Both the position numbers and the translations under genes were made by a program. Below are positions 7,989-60,008 of a stretch of 64,000 bases of DNA, piece by piece (the stretch's first letter is position 1; each line of letters starts with the position of its first letter). The DNA comes from Erinaceus europaeus (Eukaryota > Chordata > Mammalia > Eulipotyphla > Erinaceidae). The notes beneath the pieces are model-generated. The model saw only the letters and a program-made list of their open reading frames with translations. It did no database searches and was not told the origin of the DNA. Where the stretch lies: positions 115,392,890 through 115,456,889 of the forward strand of contig NC_080164.1 in NCBI RefSeq assembly GCF_950295315.1, in the 5' to 3' direction.

Positions 7989-7994
7989 TCACTC

Positions 7995-8337
7995 TGTTCC
8001 AGTCTCTTGGAAACAGAGTTGGCAGTCAGCTGAGGTAAAGAACAAACACCTCATCACAGACCCCTGCAAGCGTCAACGCGGCTTTGACCTAGCACGTTAT
8101 GATTGGGCTCTCCTCAATCGCTATCGAACAGGCCATGGCCGGTGCGCTGCTATGTTCCACCGCTGGGGAGCCAGAGATGACCCGAACTGCCCCTGCGGCT
8201 CCAGACAGACTATGGCCCACATAGTCAACGATTGCCACCTCTCCAGATTCAAAGGAGGTCTCGAAACTTTACATTAGGCTCAACCTGATGTTGTTGACTG
8301 GCTACAGAAGAAGGGCAAACGCTAGAAGAAGAAGAAC
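7995..8337 (+). pseudogene. 3' end of a non-L1 LINE (Jockey/I-like), copy 1
   Basis: The frame encodes the C-terminus of a non-LTR retrotransposon ORF2. It includes LLNRYRTGHGRC, HRWGARDDPNCPCG and the H-I-V-N-D-C motif; the C-x-C-G-(x)-Q-T-M-x-H-I-V-x-x-C arrangement is a Cys/His finger typical of Jockey/I-group elements and unlike the L1 C-terminus. One in-frame TAG (at LH*AQP, CAG in the other copy) makes it a pseudogene. The normal stop TAG is followed directly by AAGAAGAAG. Roughly 15 differences over about 340 bp separate it from copy 2 at 59.35 kb. A 6-bp TCACTC flanks it at 7,989-7,994 and 8,338-8,343. It lies inside sequence that may be an L1 5' UTR. Confidence 0.75.
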
Positions 8338-32663: not shown

Positions 32664-32872
32664 GGGGCCAGACGGTGGCACACCTAGTTAAGCATACACA
32701 TTACAGTGCTGGAGGACACAGGTACAAGCCTCCAGTCCCCACCTGCAGGGGGAAAGCTTCAGGAGTGGTGAAGCAGTGCCTTTCTGTCTCTCCCCATCTC
32801 TGTCTCCCCCTCGCAATTTATCTCTGTCTCTATCCAATAATAAATACATAAATAAAAACTTTTTTAAAAAAA
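32664..32872 (+). repeat. B-type SINE
   Basis: GGGGCCAGACGGTGGCACAC to CCAATAATAAATACATAAAT in canonical order. Confidence 0.85.
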
Positions 32873-47440: not shown

Positions 47441-50400
47441 TCAACTTCTGTTGATGAGTGGGATCATCCCATACTCATCTTTATCTTTCTGACTTAGTTC
47501 ACTTAACATAATTCCTTCTAGCTCTGTCCAAGATGGGTCAGAGAAGGTGGGTTCATTGTTTTTGATAGCTGCATAGTATTCCATTGTGTATATATACCAC
47601 AGCTTTCTCAGCCACTCATCTGTTGTTGGGCACCTGGGTTGCTTCCAGGTCTTAGCTATTATGAATTGTGCTGCTATGAACATAGGAGTACACACCTCTT
47701 TTTGGTTGGGTGTTATGGAGTCCTTGGGGTATAACCCTAGGAGAGGAATTACTGGATCATATGGAAGGTCCATGTCTAGCCTTCTGAGAGTTTTCCAGAC
47801 TGCTCTCCACAGAGGCTGTACCAATTTACATTCCCACCAGCAATGTAAAAGGGTTCCTCTGTCCCCACATCCTCTCCAGCATTTGTTGCTGCTGTCCTTT
47901 TTGATGTATGCCATTCTTACAGGAGTGAGGTGGTATCTTAGTGTTGTCTTAATTTGCATTTCTCTGACAATCAGTGACCTAGAGCAGTTTTTCATATGTT
48001 TGTTAGCCTTTTGGATCTCCTCTGAGGTGAATGTTTTGTTCATATCCTCTGCCCATTTTTGGATGGGGTCATTTGCTTTTTTGGTGCTAAGTTTGCTGAG
48101 CTCTTTATATATTTTGGTGATTAGTTTCTTGTCTGATGTCTGGCATGTGAAGATCTTCTCCCATTCTGTGAGGGGTCTCTCTGTTTGTTTAATAGTTTCT
48201 TTGGATGTGCAGAAGCTTTTCAATTTGATGTAGTCCCATTGGTTTGTTTATGCTTTAGTCTTTCTTGCAATTGGGTTTGATTCATCAAAGATGTCCTTGA
48301 GGTGTAGGTGGGAAAGTGTTTTACCAATGTTTTCCTCTAAGTATTTGATTGTTTCTGGTCTGACATCTAGGTCTTTGATCCATTTGGAGTTGATTTTTGT
48401 CTCTGGTGAGATAAAGTGGTTCAATTTCATTCTTCTGCATGTTTCAACCCAGTTTTCCCAGCACCATTTATTGAAGAGAGCCTCCTTTTTCCATTTAATC
48501 CTTTGGGCCCCCTTATCAAAGATTAGATGCCCATAGGTGTTGGTATTTATTTCTGGGCTTTCAATTCTGTTCCACTGGTCTGTGTGCCTATTTTTGTTCC
48601 AGTACCATGCTGTCTTGATGATGATGGCTTTATAATATAGTTTAAGGTCTGGGAGTGTGATGCCTCCATTTCTGTTTCTTTTCCTTAAGATGGTTTTGGC
48701 AATTCTAGGTGTTTTCAGGTTCCAGATAAATGATTGTAGTGTTTGTTCTATTCTCTTAAAGAAGCTTGGTGGAACTTTGATGGGTATTGCATTAAATTTG
48801 TATATGGCTCTGGGGAGAATATTCATTTTGATGATATTTATTCTTCCAATCCATGAGCATGGGATATCTTTCCATTTCTTGGTATCAGTTTCTCTTTCCT
48901 TGGGTAGCGACTCATAGTTTTCAACATACAAGTCTTTCACTTCTTTGGTCAACTTTATTCCTAGGTATTTGATTGATTTTGCTGAAACAGTAAATGGGAG
49001 TGATTTCTGGATGTCTTCTTCTTCAGATTTAGTGTTTGCATAAAGAAATGCCACTGATTTTTGTACATTGATTTTGTAGCCTGATACCTTGCTATATTGC
49101 CTAATAACTTCCAGTAATTTTCTACTGGATTCTTTTTGGTCTTTCTATGTATACTATCGTATCATCTGCAAATAGTGAGAGCTTGACTTCTTTCCTTCCA
49201 ATCTGTATTCCTTTGATTTCTTTCTCTTGCCTGATTGCTATGGCAAGAACTTCCAATACTATGTTGAAGAGTAAAGGTGACAGTGGACAGCCCTGTCTAG
49301 TCCCCGATCTGAGGGGGAATGCTTTCAGCTTCTGTCCACTGAGTATGATGTTGGCTATAGGTTTGCTATATATAAACTCCAATATCTTGAGGAATTTCCC
49401 ATCTATTCCCATTTTTTGTAGAGTTTTGAGCATGAATGGGTTTCAATTTTGTCAATGGCTTTCTCTGTACCTATTGAGATAATCATGTGGTTTTTGGCTT
49501 TGCTTTTATTGATGTGGTGAATGACATTGATTGACTTACGGATGTTGAACCAGCCTTGTATTCCTGGGATGAATCCCACTTGGTCATGATGAACAATCTT
49601 TTTGATGTGTTGCTGTATCCGGTTGGCCAAGATCTTGTTAAATATTTTGGCATCTATGTTCATCAGAGATATTGGTCTGTAGTTTTCCTTTTTTGTTCTG
49701 TCCCTATCAGCTTTTGGTATCAGAGTGATGTTGGCTTCATAAAAGGTGGAAGGGAGTATTCCTGTTTCTTCAATCTTATGGAATAGCTTAAGAAGTATGG
49801 GTATTAACTGTTTCCTGAAAGTTTTGTAGAATTCGTCTGTGAAGCCATCTGGTCCTGGACTTTTGTTGTTGGGGAGATTCTTAATAACGGTTTCAATTTC
49901 TTTGTCTGTGATTGGTGCATTTAGATTTTGTAGTTCTTCTTGGTTCAGTTTTGGAAGTTCATAGGTTTCTAGGAATTGTTCCATATTTTCAGATTCTCTA
50001 GCTTGGTGGCATATAGTTCTTTATAGAAGTTTCGCAGGATTCTCTGGATTTCTGTGGTGTCAGTTGTGATATCTCCTGCATCGTTTACAATTCTATTAAT
50101 TTGAGTCTTCTCTCTTTTTTGTTTGTTGAGTCTGGCTAGGGGTTTGTCAATTTTGTTTAATCTTTCAAAGAACCAACATTTGGCTTCCTTGATCTTTTGT
50201 ATGGTTCTTTTATTTTCGATGTTGTTTATTTCTGCTCGAACTTTAGTGATTTCTGTCCTTCTGGTTGCTTTGGGTTCCTTTGTTCCTCTTCCTCTAAGTC
50301 CTTGAGGTGTGCAGTAAGGTCATTCATTTGAGCTTCTTCTTGGTGTTTAATATGTGATTGTATGGCTATAAGTTTCCCTCTCAGTACTGTTTTAGCTGTG

Positions 50401-50890
50401 TCCCAAATATTTTGATAGGTTGTGTCTTCATTTTCATTAGTTTCCAGGAACATTTGAATTTCCTGTTTGAGTGAGTCTCTGACCCAGTGGTTCTTAAGGA
50501 GCATGTTGTTTAGTTTCCAAATTCTGTGTCTTTTAATAATTTTCCATTTGTTGTTAAATGTTACTTTTACTCCACTGTGGTCTGAGAAGATACTTGGGAT
50601 GATTTCAATGCTCTTGAATTTATTGATGCTGTCTTTGTGGCCTAACATGTGGTCTATCCTTGAGTATGTGTTATATGGATTTGAAAAGAAGGTGTATTCC
50701 AGTTTTTTGGGGTGGAGGAGTCTGAAAATGTCCAAGAGGTCTAGTCTGTCGATCTCTTCATTCAATTCTCTTGTATCTTTATTGGTTCTCTGCTTTGTTG
50801 CTCTGTCTGAGTGTGAGAGTGGGGTATTGAAGTCTCCCACTATTATTGTATTACTATTGATGTATTTTTGAAATTCTTTCAGTAGATGCT
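47441..50890 (-). pseudogene. L1 ORF2 (endonuclease/reverse transcriptase), broken
   Basis: ORF2 encodes the L1 endonuclease and reverse transcriptase that copy L1 RNA at a nicked genomic target. Visible on the minus strand: the C-terminal part of the endonuclease with GDFN, SRIDHML and SDHSGV (50,840-50,530); reverse transcriptase motifs [10 protein letters not shown] and YRPISLMN (about 49,870-49,680), [14 protein letters not shown] (about 49,300) and the catalytic FADD (about 49,150); and the C-terminal Cys segment [18 protein letters not shown] (about 47,900-47,850). The frame shifts at least three times between 50,226 and 49,054, with a nonsense codon near 48,246. The first catalytic aspartate is also lost: the usual I-S-I-D-A-E-K-A-F-D reads [10 protein letters not shown] at about 49,465-49,490. 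About 100 N-terminal residues are missing. No active enzyme is possible. Confidence 0.93.
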
Positions 50891-50905
50891 CTTGAGGGAC
50901 TTTCT
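50891..50905. repeat. target-site duplication of the 46 kb L1, right copy
   Basis: CTTGAGGGACTTTCT; see the left copy at 46,070-46,084. Confidence 0.9.
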
Positions 50906-55959: not shown

Positions 55960-57040
55960 CAGAATGGGACACCCATGGTTTGTGAGACTTGGTCTCTGTT
56001 TAGCAAGTAACAATTGGACCAAATGTGTAGCAGTAATGGTGGCACATAACTTTACTGCTGCTTTCTGCTTGATGCCATAAAGGTTTTTTTCAAGCCTCAG
56101 AGCTGTTAGGCAAAGTAAAATTTTAGTGAACTATTTTGTGGAAATGCCAAGCAATTAGTGTGTGATGTCATTTATGGGATGCATTATTAATGGGAAATGC
56201 TAGAGTAATTCAGAAAGTAAATGATATGTAAAGGTCATATTATCGTGTGCCTGGAGGGAGCAGAAATAGAAATGAAGAGTAGAGAAAAAGAGAAAGGGAA
56301 AAGGGAGAGGGAGTGAGATTAAGAGGGAGGGAGGGAATATATATATGTATGGAGAGAGAGAGAGAGAGAATAAAGCAGAATATGCTGGCATTTCTGGTGG
56401 TACTTCCCAGTAGTCTGTGAAATGCCAGTTCCCAGCTGGAGCTGGTTGGTCCAGGTTGCTGGAGACAAGTTCTGATCTGCTTAAGAGACTGGTGATTGAC
56501 TACTGATACTCAGGTTAACTGATGAATTACAACCAGATTAATTAAGCCTTTTAATTTATTTTTAATAGACCTGAGGACAAGCAGGAGGGCCTCTGGCAAA
56601 CTGCTAACTTAGTGGGCCAGGGTAAATCACTCCCTTAAATCAAAGCCATGATGGGAAGCAAGGTGCTTGCTGCTTTTGCTTAAGGTGGAAGTCCTTTACT
56701 TTGCAATTTCCCATTATTCCACTGTTAGATTTCCAAAGAACTCCTTTTAGAATGTGTTCACACAGCATCCATGCTACCTACCTGCCTTTAGAGAGGTTAA
56801 CTTGTAGTTGTAATTGATTGCAATGAAAGACAGGGAAGCATTCTTATTTTTGTCTGTGAAGAACTGAAGTTAAACAATGCTGCCAAAGAACATAGTTTTT
56901 GGTAGTTTGGTCAACTTATTAACTTGGTAGCCCCAAGTCCTATTTGAATAATGTATTTTCCTTTACAAATCTGACCATAGAACTTTTTGTGAAAAATAAG
57001 TGATAGCTTATTAGTAATTGTTAGTGTATTTGAAAATGGT
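55960..57040. other. unique sequence, nothing recognised
   Basis: (AT)n and (GA)n runs at about 56,338-56,368. Nothing else was recognised. Confidence 0.45.
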
Positions 57041-57041
57041 T

Positions 57042-57328
57042 TTTTTTTTCTTGTTTTTGTCCACTGGGCTTTTGTGCCTGCATGATTCCACCATTCCTGG
57101 CATAATCTTTTTTCATTTCAGTCTCAGAGACAGAAATAGAGGCAGGGGAGAGAGGAAGGGGGAGAGGGAGGAAGAAAGTGAGAGAAGGCAAGAGGGAAGG
57201 AGCGTGAAAGAGAGTTACAGCACTGCTCCATTGCTTATGAAGCCTCACCCCAGCAGGTGGGGACCAGGGACTTGAACCTGGGCCCTTGCACATGGTAATG
57301 TTTGCACTCAACTAGGCTTGCCACTACC
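57042..57328 (-). repeat. B-type SINE with 3' module, host of the LTR element
   Basis: TTTTTGTCCACTGGGCTTTT, CCACCATTCCTGG, the GA-rich body and AGGGACTTGAACCTGGGCCC in the reversed order. The last tRNA-like bases (CTTGCCACTACCTGG) are split by the LTR element and resume at 58,823. Confidence 0.78.
57323..57328. repeat. 6-bp target duplication of LTR element, left copy
   Basis: ACTACC, identical to 58,823-58,828. Confidence 0.85.
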
Positions 57329-57724
57329 TGTTGTTAAAATTCGGAAGGCTCTTGCCAGCAGGGCTAGCTTCACGGGCGGGTAACAGAGACGCGGAGACAA
57401 CGGCTGGGCAGGGAAGCTGTATTTCTTTATTCAGGAACAACGATTCATAAACTAAGACACACTAATCACCAAACAGAACTCTGCTGTCTCTTTGCAGCGG
57501 CGCAAGCACTCTCCCTTACTCTCGAACTCAGGAACCCTCCAACTCTCGAACTCTGGAACTCTCGTACTCGGGAACCCTCTGGCCCTCTCTCTCTTCCTCT
57601 CGAACTCAGGAACCCTCTCTCAGGGTTCCTTGGGGCGGGGCCAAGCGGCCCGCAAAATTAACTGGACTGATCCAATTCTCTTGGCGGGGGAGGGCTAGAA
57701 CAAACCAATGTAAAGCATACGACA
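57329..57724 (-). repeat. 3' LTR of a class-II-like LTR element
   Basis: 396 bp bounded by TG and CA (minus strand TGTCGTATGC to TTTTAACAACA). The minus strand has a GC box (GGCCCCGCCCC) and, near the R/U5 side, an AATAAA polyadenylation signal (57,426-57,431). The middle is a minisatellite of about 20-bp CTCTCGAACTCAGGAACCCTC-like units. It differs from the other LTR by six substitutions and a 26-bp unit. A 6-bp target duplication and the tRNA-Lys primer fit class II (betaretrovirus-like) elements. Confidence 0.92.
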
Positions 57725-57725
57725 A

Positions 57726-57741
57726 TTCCCCCTTTTCTTTT
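57726..57741 (-). promoter_or_regulatory. polypurine tract
   Basis: On the minus strand AAAAGAAAAGGGGGAA precedes the 3' LTR by one base. This is the expected primer site for plus-strand DNA synthesis and fixes the element's orientation. Confidence 0.88.
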
Positions 57742-58049
57742 AACTAAATGGCTACAGTATCAAGGGTGTTGGGTGAACAGAAACATATATCATACAGGCA
57801 TTTTTAAAAAAGAAACTGGCACAAACATGGAGAAACATGCAAGCAAATAACAAGAACCAGCGTGCTGCCAAGGGAAAGCCTGAGGGGGCCATATCTGCCT
57901 CTGTGGGCTAAACTTTATCAGCTTAAAAAAAACATTTCTTGCCTCTGGGGGGCTACTTGCCTCGATGGGCATTTGTATGGGGGCGGGGAACAGCCTAGAG
58001 TCCCAAAGGCAGCTGGCTGCAACTTACTTACTATGAAACAAAACTTGTT

Positions 58050-58138
58050 ATTAGCATATCTACTGCATGATCCAACGTTTCTAATAGAGAAGGAATTTGA
58101 GACTTTTACATATCAACAACGTCTTTTAACCTTTTGTT
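58050..58138. repeat. internal direct repeat, copy 1
   Basis: Shares TTCTAATAGAGAAGG, TTTTACATATCAACAA and TTTAACCTTTTGTT with copy 2 at 58,205-58,293. Confidence 0.85.
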
Positions 58139-58204
58139 ACACCCATTCAAGATGGAGACACACCCTAGGTGTGGGCTGGAGAGGAAACCTCAGGCATGAG
58201 AATA

Positions 58205-58293
58205 ATTAGCATAGCCATTGTGCGATCTACCATTTCTAATAGAGAAGGTAGTGGAGAGTTTTACATATCAACAAGTCTATTTAACCTTTTGTT
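58205..58293. repeat. internal direct repeat, copy 2
   Basis: See copy 1. The two copies are 67 bp apart, separated by a CACACCCTAGGTGTGGGCTG-containing spacer. Confidence 0.85.
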
Positions 58294-58322
58294 TAGACCA
58301 ACTTAGTTAAAATATATTGATT

Positions 58323-58395
58323 GCCCGGCTAGCTCAGTCGGTAGAGCATGAGACTCTTAATCTCAGGGTCGTGGGTTCGTGCCCCACGTTGGGCG
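58323..58395 (+). tRNA. complete tRNA-Lys(CTT) copy forming an extended primer binding site; not a tRNA gene
   Basis: 73 nt matching tRNA-Lys(CTT) end to end: acceptor GCCCGGC, D-arm GCTCAGTCGGTAGAGC, anticodon CTT at 58,356-58,358, T-arm GTGGG/CCCAC and acceptor GTTGGGC plus discriminator G. By my memory of the mammalian tRNA the only difference is A58 to T at 58,380. The 3'-CCA, absent from nuclear tRNA genes, is present at 58,396-58,398. Two bases separate it from the 5' LTR. In the element's (minus) orientation the first 18 nt after the LTR are the expected tRNA-Lys primer binding site; here the complement continues through the whole tRNA. The altered A58 lies in the pol III B box, and there is no reason to think it is transcribed as tRNA. 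Confidence 0.9.
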
Positions 58396-58398
58396 CCA
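58381..58398 (-). promoter_or_regulatory. 18-nt primer binding site (tRNA-Lys1,2 type)
   Basis: The minus strand reads TGGCGCCCAACGTGGGGC, complementary to the last 18 nt of tRNA-Lys(CTT) including CCA. It ends exactly at nucleotide 59, next to the modified A58. Confidence 0.93.
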
Positions 58399-58400
58399 TT

Positions 58401-58822
58401 TGTTGTTAAAATTCGGAAGGCTCTTGCCAGCAGGGCTAGCTTCACGGGCGGGTAACAGAGACGCGGAGACAACGGCTGGGCAGGGAAGCTGTATTTCTTT
58501 ATTCAGGACCAACAATTCATAAACTAAGACAAACTAATCACCAAACAGAACTCTGCTGTCTCTTTGCAGCGGCACAAGCACTCTCCCTTACTCTCGAACT
58601 CAGGAACTCTCCCTTACTCTTGAACTCAGGAACCCTCCAACTCTCGAACTCTGGAACTCTCGTACTCGGGAACCCTCTGGCCCTCTCTCTCTTCCTCTCG
58701 AACTCAGGAACCCTCTCTTGGGGTTCCTTGGGGCGGGGCCAAGCGGCCCGCAAAATTAACTGGACTGATCCAATTCTCTTGGCGGGGGAGGGCTAGAACA
58801 AACCAATGTAAAGCATACGACA
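58401..58822 (-). repeat. 5' LTR of the class-II-like LTR element
   Basis: 422 bp, TG to CA on either strand. Same features as the 3' LTR (AATAAA complement at 58,498-58,503, GC box, minisatellite). It has one extra 26-bp unit (GGAACTCTCCCTTACTC and so on) around 58,605-58,630. Confidence 0.92.
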
Positions 58823-58828
58823 ACTACC
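58823..58828. repeat. 6-bp target duplication of LTR element, right copy
   Basis: ACTACC; see 57,323-57,328. Confidence 0.85.
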
Positions 58829-58869
58829 TGGTCTCAATCTCAGAATTTTAAATCTTTAGGTCTAAAATC

Positions 58870-59268
58870 TATGCATTTAAAGAGCTTGAGACATTCAATC
58901 TCTTTTCCTATCTCCTATTTTATAAGCAGCGATTTATAAGACTATAAGTAAATAGAAGTATGCATTAACATCATTCCCACCACCAAAGGTCTGTGCCCCT
59001 ATCCCCAGCCCCTTTCAGTGGAACTGAAACTCTGCCCTTTCAACCTCCCTGCCCCCAATGAGAGTCTTTTACTTTGGTGCAATACTCCAAACCGAGACAA
59101 ATTCTGTTTTGTGTTTCCCTTTCTGTTCTTTCTCAACTTCTTTTTATGAATGAAATCATCCCATATTCATCTTTCTCTTTCTTGCTTATCTTACTCAACG
59201 TAGTTCCTTCAAGCTCCATCCAAGATGGGTCGAAGAAGGAGGATGCATTATTCCTAATAGCTGAATAT
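58870..59268 (-). mobile_element. L1 ORF2 end and 3' UTR
   Basis: Reversed L1: CATTCCCACCACCAAAGGTC, GAGAGTCTTTTACTTTGGTG, TCCATCCAAGATGGGTC and CTAATAGCTGAATATG correspond to 47.2-47.58 kb. Confidence 0.8.
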
Positions 59269-59282
59269 GGGGAAATATTTTG
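59269..59282. repeat. target-site duplication of the 59 kb SINE, left copy
   Basis: GGGGAAATATTTTG, identical to 60,266-60,279. Confidence 0.9.
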
Positions 59283-59347
59283 TTTGTTTTATTTATTTGT
59301 TTATTTATTTTTTGCCTCCAAGATTATTGCTGGGGCTCAGTGCCTCA
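59283..59347 (-). repeat. A-type SINE, 3' part (interrupted by LINE)
   Basis: (TTTA)n then the 3' module TTTGCCTCCAAGATTATTGC, TGGGGCTCAGTGCCTCA. The module breaks at AGTGCCTCA, where the LINE fragment is inserted. Confidence 0.9.
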
Positions 59348-60008
59348 TCTCTGGCATTATGCTATCCCGCTGCAGAATACTGTGCCCCAGTATGGTTCTG
59401 TAGCCCCCATGTCCACTTGGTCGATTCCAAATTATATTCCTCCATGAGGATAATTTCTGGAACCATCCGTTCCACCCCGGTTCCATGGCTGCCAGTTCTT
59501 AGCAACATCGCCCCGCCAGATATTCGTCGGGATGCAGCATCATCTAAGTTCATTTCCCACGTCTACGCTCGACCGGACCTGCCAATATACACGGATATCT
59601 TCGCCCACCCTGTCCAACGCTTGACGTCTCGTCACCCAATCTGGTCCCCTATGCCTACACTGAACTTCTCTGTTCCAGTCTCTTGGAAACAGAGTTGGCA
59701 GTCAGCTGAGGTAAAGAACAAACACCTCATCACAGACCCCTGCAAGCGTCAACCCGGCTTTGACCTAGCACATTATGATTGGGCCCTCCTCAATCGCTAT
59801 CGAACAGGCCATGGCCGGTGCACCGCTATGTTCCATCGCTGGGGAGCCAGAGACAACCCGAACTGCCCCTGTGGCTACAGACAGACTATGACCCACATTG
59901 TCAACGACTGCCACCTCTCCAGATTCAAAGGAGGTCTCGAAACTTTACATCAGGCTCAACCTGATGCTGTTGACTGGCTACAGAAGAAGGGCAAACGCTA
60001 GAAGAAGA
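59348..60008 (+). pseudogene. 3' end of a non-L1 LINE (Jockey/I-like), copy 2, open frame
   Basis: A 5'-truncated non-LTR retrotransposon fragment with an open frame from 59,348 to the TAG at 59,999-60,001, about 218 codons. In order: AAEYCAPVW and SSMRIISGTIRSTPVPWLP (post-reverse-transcriptase thumb region), LPIYTDIFAHPVQRLTSR, SWKQSWQSAEV, LLNRYRTGHGRC and a C-terminal Cys/His finger C-P-C-G-Y-R-Q-T-M-T-H-I-V-N-D-C. This matches the C-terminus of Jockey/I-group elements common in invertebrates and fish, not L1 or L2. The stop is followed directly by AAGAAGA, so there is almost no 3' UTR. AGTGCCTCA at 59,339-59,347 and 60,009-60,017 is its target duplication within the SINE. The catalytic region is missing, so it is a dead fragment. 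Confidence 0.85.

Follow-up and report, generated by a model that had tools for sequence, protein, structure and literature searches.

How does an entire transfer RNA (tRNA) come to lie at the place where a long terminal repeat (LTR) element is expected to carry a primer binding site of just 18 nt? The question is raised by a 1,494-bp, non-autonomous LTR retroelement of the hedgehog Erinaceus europaeus, located in a 64,000-nt stretch of contig NC_080164.1 (assembly GCF_950295315.1, forward-strand positions 115,392,890–115,456,889) that is referred to below as the window. A preliminary description of this stretch placed the complement of a whole tRNA-Lys(CTT) at window positions 58323–58398, next to the 5' LTR, with a single mismatch at position 58,380; both the coordinates and the base are exact. 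The answer that we arrive at is that this class II-like element, primed by tRNA-Lys(CTT) (Lys1,2), quite probably carries the complementary DNA of its whole primer.

The tRNA-Lys (CTT) at 58323–58398 (plus strand) is the single tRNA detected by ARAGORN in the 64-kb window, and positions 58323–58395 match the Rfam family RF00005 (61.3 bits, E 7.9e-11). An ungapped comparison of 58323–58398 with human tRNA-Lys(CTT)—as printed in PMC8216282, with CCA appended for the comparison—gave 75 identical positions out of 76. The copy extends through the 3' CCA, as first described, and its sole difference from the human sequence is an A to T change at canonical position 58 (numbered back from A76), or window position 58380; in the sense of the element, this base reads as A. 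The T is not within any CpG, and its 3' neighbour in the tRNA is G59. The predicted fold energies of the 76 nt are −28.1 kcal/mol in the element sense (z −2.39) and −30.4 kcal/mol in the tRNA sense (z −1.47). The observation of a whole tRNA-Lys copy is thereby confirmed as real and exact.

The structure surrounding the copy is that of an LTR retroelement with both of its ends (57329–58822), lying on the minus strand with its 5' LTR at the right and its 3' LTR at the left. Self-comparison of 57001–59600 revealed two direct copies (57329–57725 and 58401–58823) which, when trimmed to TG...CA, give a 5' LTR of 422 nt (58401–58822, minus strand; poly(A) signal AATAAA at 58498–58503) and a 3' LTR of 396 nt (57329–57724, minus strand; poly(A) signal AATAAA at 57426–57431). 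The two are identical at 390 of 396 aligned positions, with six mismatches, and the 3' LTR is 26 nt shorter than the 5' LTR within a tandem array. The target-site duplication ACTACC is found at 57323–57328 on the left and at 58823–58828 on the right. Reading along the minus strand, the right LTR ends in ACAACA and is followed by (i) a 2-nt spacer, AA (58399–58400), (ii) the 18-nt tRNA-Lys1,2 primer binding site TGGCGCCCAACGTGGGGC (58381–58398), an 18-mer as printed in PMC8775094, and (iii) the rest of the tRNA complement, a 58-nt extension of the primer site (58323–58380) that is complementary to tRNA-Lys(CTT) positions 1–58 with the one difference noted above. With as many as three mismatches permitted, the primer site TGGCGCCCAACGTGGGGC has a single occurrence in the window, and none of 100 shuffles contains it. 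At the far end of the internal region, the polypurine tract AAAAGAAAAGGGGGAAT (57725–57741, minus strand) abuts the 3' LTR; 17-nt stretches that contain GGGGG and no more than one non-purine base are present at 214 of 127,967 places on the two strands of the window, and hence a tract at this exact spot is not due to chance alone. The LTR pair, the ACTACC duplication and the polypurine tract demonstrate that this is a real LTR insertion. With the LTR pair, the 2-nt spacer and the 18-mer all in place, the earlier claim of an LTR element whose Lys1,2 primer site abuts the 5' LTR is borne out. Tandem arrays are seen in both LTRs, at 58580–58719 and 57517–57617.

Several kinds of tRNA-related sequence could, in principle, be found beside an LTR. 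A functional tRNA gene was considered and rejected: CCA is encoded here, position 58 is T, and there is no four-T run to act as a polymerase III terminator between 58399 and 58845. A tRNA-derived short interspersed element (SINE) or retropseudogene was likewise rejected, since the tRNA part has neither an abutting duplication of its own nor a tail. The longest word common to the 20-nt flanks of the tRNA copy is GTTAAAAT, its 8 nt being also the maximum word length tried, whose copies at 58306–58313 and 58405–58412 stand 9 nt and 6 nt off the tRNA copy and do not form an abutting duplication. CCA is not encoded by mammalian tRNA genes, and a genomic tRNA locus therefore cannot supply it; capture of a genomic tRNA gene—which the preliminary description had named as an outcome that would overturn its reading—is rejected on account of the CCA and the exact primer-site register. 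A broader alternative is that some other route, such as retroposition driven by a long interspersed element (LINE), recombination or repair, brought a tRNA or a fragment of a tRNA gene into the primer site. Mammalian tRNA retropseudogenes do exist, but the exact primer-site register, antisense orientation and CCA, together with the lack of a poly(A) tail and of a directly abutting duplication, make such a route extremely unlikely. An assembly artefact that fused a tRNA with an LTR element would be in keeping with the single copy seen; set against the CCA, the fit of the copy to the primer site with one-base precision and the intact LTRs and target duplication, it is scarcely credible. Because it combines exact primer-site register, antisense orientation and a CCA end with no abutting duplication or tail, the sequence is best taken as a copy of the tRNA that primed the element.

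How could a primer tRNA be copied whole and kept? The likeliest sequence of events is as follows: (i) minus-strand DNA would be primed by the tRNA at the 18-nt site; (ii) the plus strand, starting from the polypurine tract, would cross U3-R-U5 and continue into the attached tRNA; (iii) reverse transcriptase would pass the 1-methyladenosine at position 58 (m1A58), insert A, and reach the tRNA 5' end; (iv) the 76-nt tail would be kept, the growing plus strand being joined to the minus-strand leader—by a template jump or by annealing from the tRNA end—rather than the 58-nt flap being lost; and (v) the long product would be integrated. We infer the order of these steps from what is established about reverse transcription. 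That the modified base was passed is suggested by one altered base, and the rescue of the long tail in the fourth step is presumed. The GTTAAAAT pair might mark the join of the long product, or it might be chance; its right copy falls within the U5 terminus of the 5' LTR and its left copy just left of the tRNA copy. The 8-mer ATTTTAAC, found at the U5 end and again 9 nt past the tRNA copy, has four occurrences on the two window strands. A more extended resemblance between U5 and the leader was sought and rejected: when junction and internal sequence are matched over 24 nt without gaps, the highest score is 14 of 24 positions identical, and 25 of 30 single-base shuffles reach at least 14.

The published behaviour of primer tRNAs provides a context for the third step. 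The preliminary description took m1A58 to be the usual stop of plus-strand synthesis, and the literature agrees: plus-strand strong-stop synthesis halts mainly at m1A58, an in-vitro-transcribed tRNA is copied completely, and mutation of the TRMT6-TRMT61A methyltransferase allows plus-strand synthesis to extend past A58 (PMC13191261). Its statement that enzymes which pass m1A misincorporate there also agrees with the literature, where reverse transcriptases passing m1A are found to misread it, with a low reading of C when a G follows (PMC4787781). T and G therefore remain as the misreadings; in the hedgehog element, G59 follows and T was read.

Two alternatives account for T58 without a misread modification. 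In the first, the same read-through took place on a primer without m1A58, and T58 arose afterwards by chance mutation. The complete copying of in-vitro-transcribed tRNA and the effect of TRMT6-TRMT61A mutation (PMC13191261) show that synthesis can pass an unmarked position 58. The distance between the LTRs is 0.0153, from which an integration age of roughly 3.5 million years may be estimated at a mammalian substitution rate of 2.2e-9 per site per year; some 0.58 substitutions would be expected to have accrued over 76 nt in the time following integration. However, the probability that drift produces exactly one substitution at position 58 is P = 0.0043, or 0.0014 if it must be to T. With the rate of T misreading set at between 0.1 and 0.6, read-through is favoured over drift by a likelihood ratio of about 40 to 240; these figures presuppose that all sites change at one rate and that the host tRNA resembles the human one. 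On these grounds we regard chance mutation as unlikely. In the second alternative, a host tRNA-Lys(CTT) gene with T58, and hence no m1A58, supplied the primer; the copy would then be faithful, with no stop to pass, and both the read-through and T58 would be accounted for at once. A58 is highly conserved among tRNAs. The Rfam consensus has A in that column, and the printed human sequence has A58 (PMC8216282); a T58 primer gene thus appears very unlikely.

A further proposal concerns the retention of T58, and is compatible with copying from the primer. If the tRNA copy acted as a tRNA gene with both polymerase III boxes, transcribed towards the 5' LTR, then T58 might have been retained by selection because, judged by the B-box consensus, it would weaken the B box. 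The A box region TAGCTCAGTCGG and the B box region GGTTCGTGCCC are both present, and the stretch from 58399 to 58845 holds no four-T run. There is, however, no evidence of transcription, and selection would cover only why T58 was kept, not where the copy came from. We consider this proposal very doubtful indeed.

A second line of evidence on the timing of the copy comes from the remaining internal region (57742–58322, minus strand), which contains an imperfect direct repeat (58050–58138 and 58205–58293). The two 89-nt copies are 83% identical over 90 columns, gaps included, and the repeat seems to predate the integration by far. A tRNA extension of the same age as the repeat should have gathered about 5.4 changes at its 57 sites other than position 58, yet it has none relative to the human tRNA (P = 0.005), which sets a 95% upper bound of 5.1% on the divergence since capture. 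If the repeat originated within the element, then the tRNA copy is far younger than the repeat, or it is renewed from tRNA.

A number of points weigh against a read-through of m1A58 with misincorporation. The element is represented by one copy, a misincorporation is not provable from one base, and the comparison was made with the human tRNA rather than with the tRNA-Lys genes of the host. G is another expected misreading where m1A has a 3' G (PMC4787781). In human immunodeficiency virus type 1 (HIV-1), the full-length product, P1, does not work as a template for transfer (PMC13191261); a rescue step would therefore be needed besides read-through, and a fixed copy is surprising. The same paper describes further stops at positions 55 and 54 and at the modified A37, all of which a full copy here had to pass. 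An A58U version of E. coli tRNA-Lys,3 supports HIV-1, and Yu et al. judged the modification at 58 non-essential (PMC1785368); this weakens a strict link between the mark and the stop, yet it makes read-through more plausible. PMC1785368 also recounts that natural A58 stops synthesis only in part, and that in the work of Renda et al. the primer-site region stayed unaltered in HIV-1 propagated with A58U tRNA-Lys3, so that no over-long sites or products entered the genome there despite the missing mark. Taken as a whole, the preliminary interpretation stands for the element, the primer site, the whole copy and the mismatch at 58, while misincorporation and amplification of a family gained no support from any test. 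Read-through of the primer is the best available interpretation of this one copy.

To which kind of element does this whole-tRNA primer site belong? The internal region measures 676 nt with the tRNA copy counted in, and the gag, pro, pol and env genes of an autonomous endogenous retrovirus were not found in it, nine of the 18 open frames listed having been scanned with Pfam. Eight of the nine minus-strand frames gave no match at E up to 10 (Pfam filters discard most matches above about E 0.1), and one plus-strand frame gave none at E up to 0.1; one minus-strand frame scanned (57606–57743) falls mostly in the LTR. No Pfam match was thus obtained in the scanned pieces of 57742–58322. The element must, we infer, have been moved by proteins from elsewhere. 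A 6-bp target duplication is a habit of class II elements, and in combination with the Lys1,2 site the duplication seen here suggests a class II (betaretrovirus-like) element, with no pol in this copy. The same two features, judged by these habits, suggest class II rather than a lentivirus or spumavirus. Among class II (ERV2-like) elements, Cer-SERV-2 carries the same 18-nt Lys1,2 primer site (PMC8775094); unlike elements of the Cer-SERV-2 type, the hedgehog element is 1.5 kb long, with no gag, pol or env found.

The closest known thing to the 58-nt extension is the primer over-extension sequence of lentiviruses, which is known in both lentiviruses and spumaviruses (Muthuswami et al. 2002, cited in PMC13191261). 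The likeness lies in complementarity to the tRNA that continues past 18 nt, directly downstream of the primer site, and here the human tRNA is matched at 57 of the 58 positions past the 18-nt site. Where an over-extension sequence is present, plus-strand products that reach past position 58 are still able to transfer (PMC13191261). There are also differences. Firstly, the lentivirus and spumavirus over-extension is described for products ending at 55 and 54 (PMC13191261), from which an over-extension of only a few nucleotides in lentiviruses may be presumed; here all 58 remaining nucleotides are covered. Secondly, these sequences belong to lentiviruses and spumaviruses, whereas the hedgehog element is class II-like and without recognised genes.

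Other known cases resemble the hedgehog sequence in part. The P1 product made from unmodified tRNA in vitro has the same extent, being a copy to the tRNA 5' end (PMC13191261), but P1 is described as inactive for transfer, while here the copy has become fixed in the genome and position 58 is changed. Leftover tRNA-copied sequence is known in integrated proviruses; here it is the whole tRNA, adjoining the 5' LTR. In the renewal of the retroviral 18-nt primer site from tRNA (PMC7472051), tRNA sequence is likewise copied into the provirus during plus-strand synthesis, and the switch of an HIV-1 primer site to Lys1,2 (PMC1084362) likewise yields provirus sequence derived from tRNA. In the renewal and switch cases described there, the copies shown are of 18 nt, rather than of the whole tRNA. 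Among the matches listed from the open-licence literature, as far as their excerpts go, a whole-tRNA provirus is not described, which does not establish novelty in print.

Collections of microbial and viral contigs were also searched. The tRNA 3' end with N at position 58 and a 31-nt piece of the LTR each gave 0 matches in the viral contig collection, and a 23-nt LTR piece gave 0 matches in bacterial and archaeal genome contigs. The 18-nt primer site alone was found in one contig, L001, and rejected as chance: ARAGORN reports no tRNA there, and in 261 nt of that contig the match to the tRNA ends a few bases past the 18-mer. An 18-nt internal piece that occurs at two places, in the long contigs L002 and L003, was also taken as chance. 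The viral, bacterial and archaeal contigs provide no provirus for comparison, and are unusable as a control for whether the element has a family.

The insertion site adds a little to this picture. When the flanks are joined via one ACTACC, they align ungapped to a SINE copy at 32779–32662 (118 nt, 70% identity). Just 9 of the 118 nt lie beyond the join, and this is the only copy that crosses the join under the filter used; the alignment may be counted as weak extra support for the target duplication. Since it reaches 9 nt past the join, the element probably stands near the end of a SINE. A SINE-like repeat is seen at 57150–57328, with the element inserted near its end.

Other repeats were seen in the window. 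Fragments at 7992–8291 and 59668–59967 are 95% identical. A broken LINE, which we take to be L1-like, occupies 47441–50903 on the minus strand, and a piece of it (49403–50020) has a reverse transcriptase domain (RVT_1). The protein read from another LINE fragment, at 59360–60001, has relatives of about 50% identity in eel, coelacanth and turtle, and the organism is named for 4 of the 73 matches to this second fragment (eel, coelacanth, turtle and aphid). We presume the fragment to be Vingi-like, and it was perhaps acquired horizontally. Along with the SINEs of the window, these LINEs are in keeping with a hedgehog genome. Hedgehog Vingi LINEs are given as a likely case of horizontal transfer in PMC3183009, where ERV2 and other LTR families are also tabulated for the hedgehog, and abundant tRNA-derived SINEs are described for the African hedgehog (PMC12026660).

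What, then, might a whole-tRNA primer site mean for the element? As it now stands, the element resembles a complete primer over-extension sequence, with a putative benefit to replication. The insert would be heritable because the 18-nt stop at m1A58 still fits, and products of up to 76 nt would find their complement. In later rounds, a product passing position 58 would, if copied correctly, pair with the leader except at base 58. It is conceivable, although on balance we doubt it, that a whole family descends from this element and replicates with a primer site of 76 nt, the entire tRNA, no longer dependent on the m1A58 stop, and that T58 is the fossil of a single germ-line read-through of modified tRNA; any later amplification of the 76-nt form is, for the present, presumptive.

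If this is true, then with a complete over-extension no plus-strand product of between 18 and 76 nt would go to waste. The 18-nt limit of the primer site has been ascribed to a chemical mark, m1A58 (PMC13191261). A whole-tRNA provirus would show that integration is possible for a product called inactive in HIV-1, and the change at m1A58 would be a natural, germ-line record of reverse transcriptase misreading a modified base. Should sister copies share the whole-tRNA insert, the role of the stop would become testable by sequence comparison alone.
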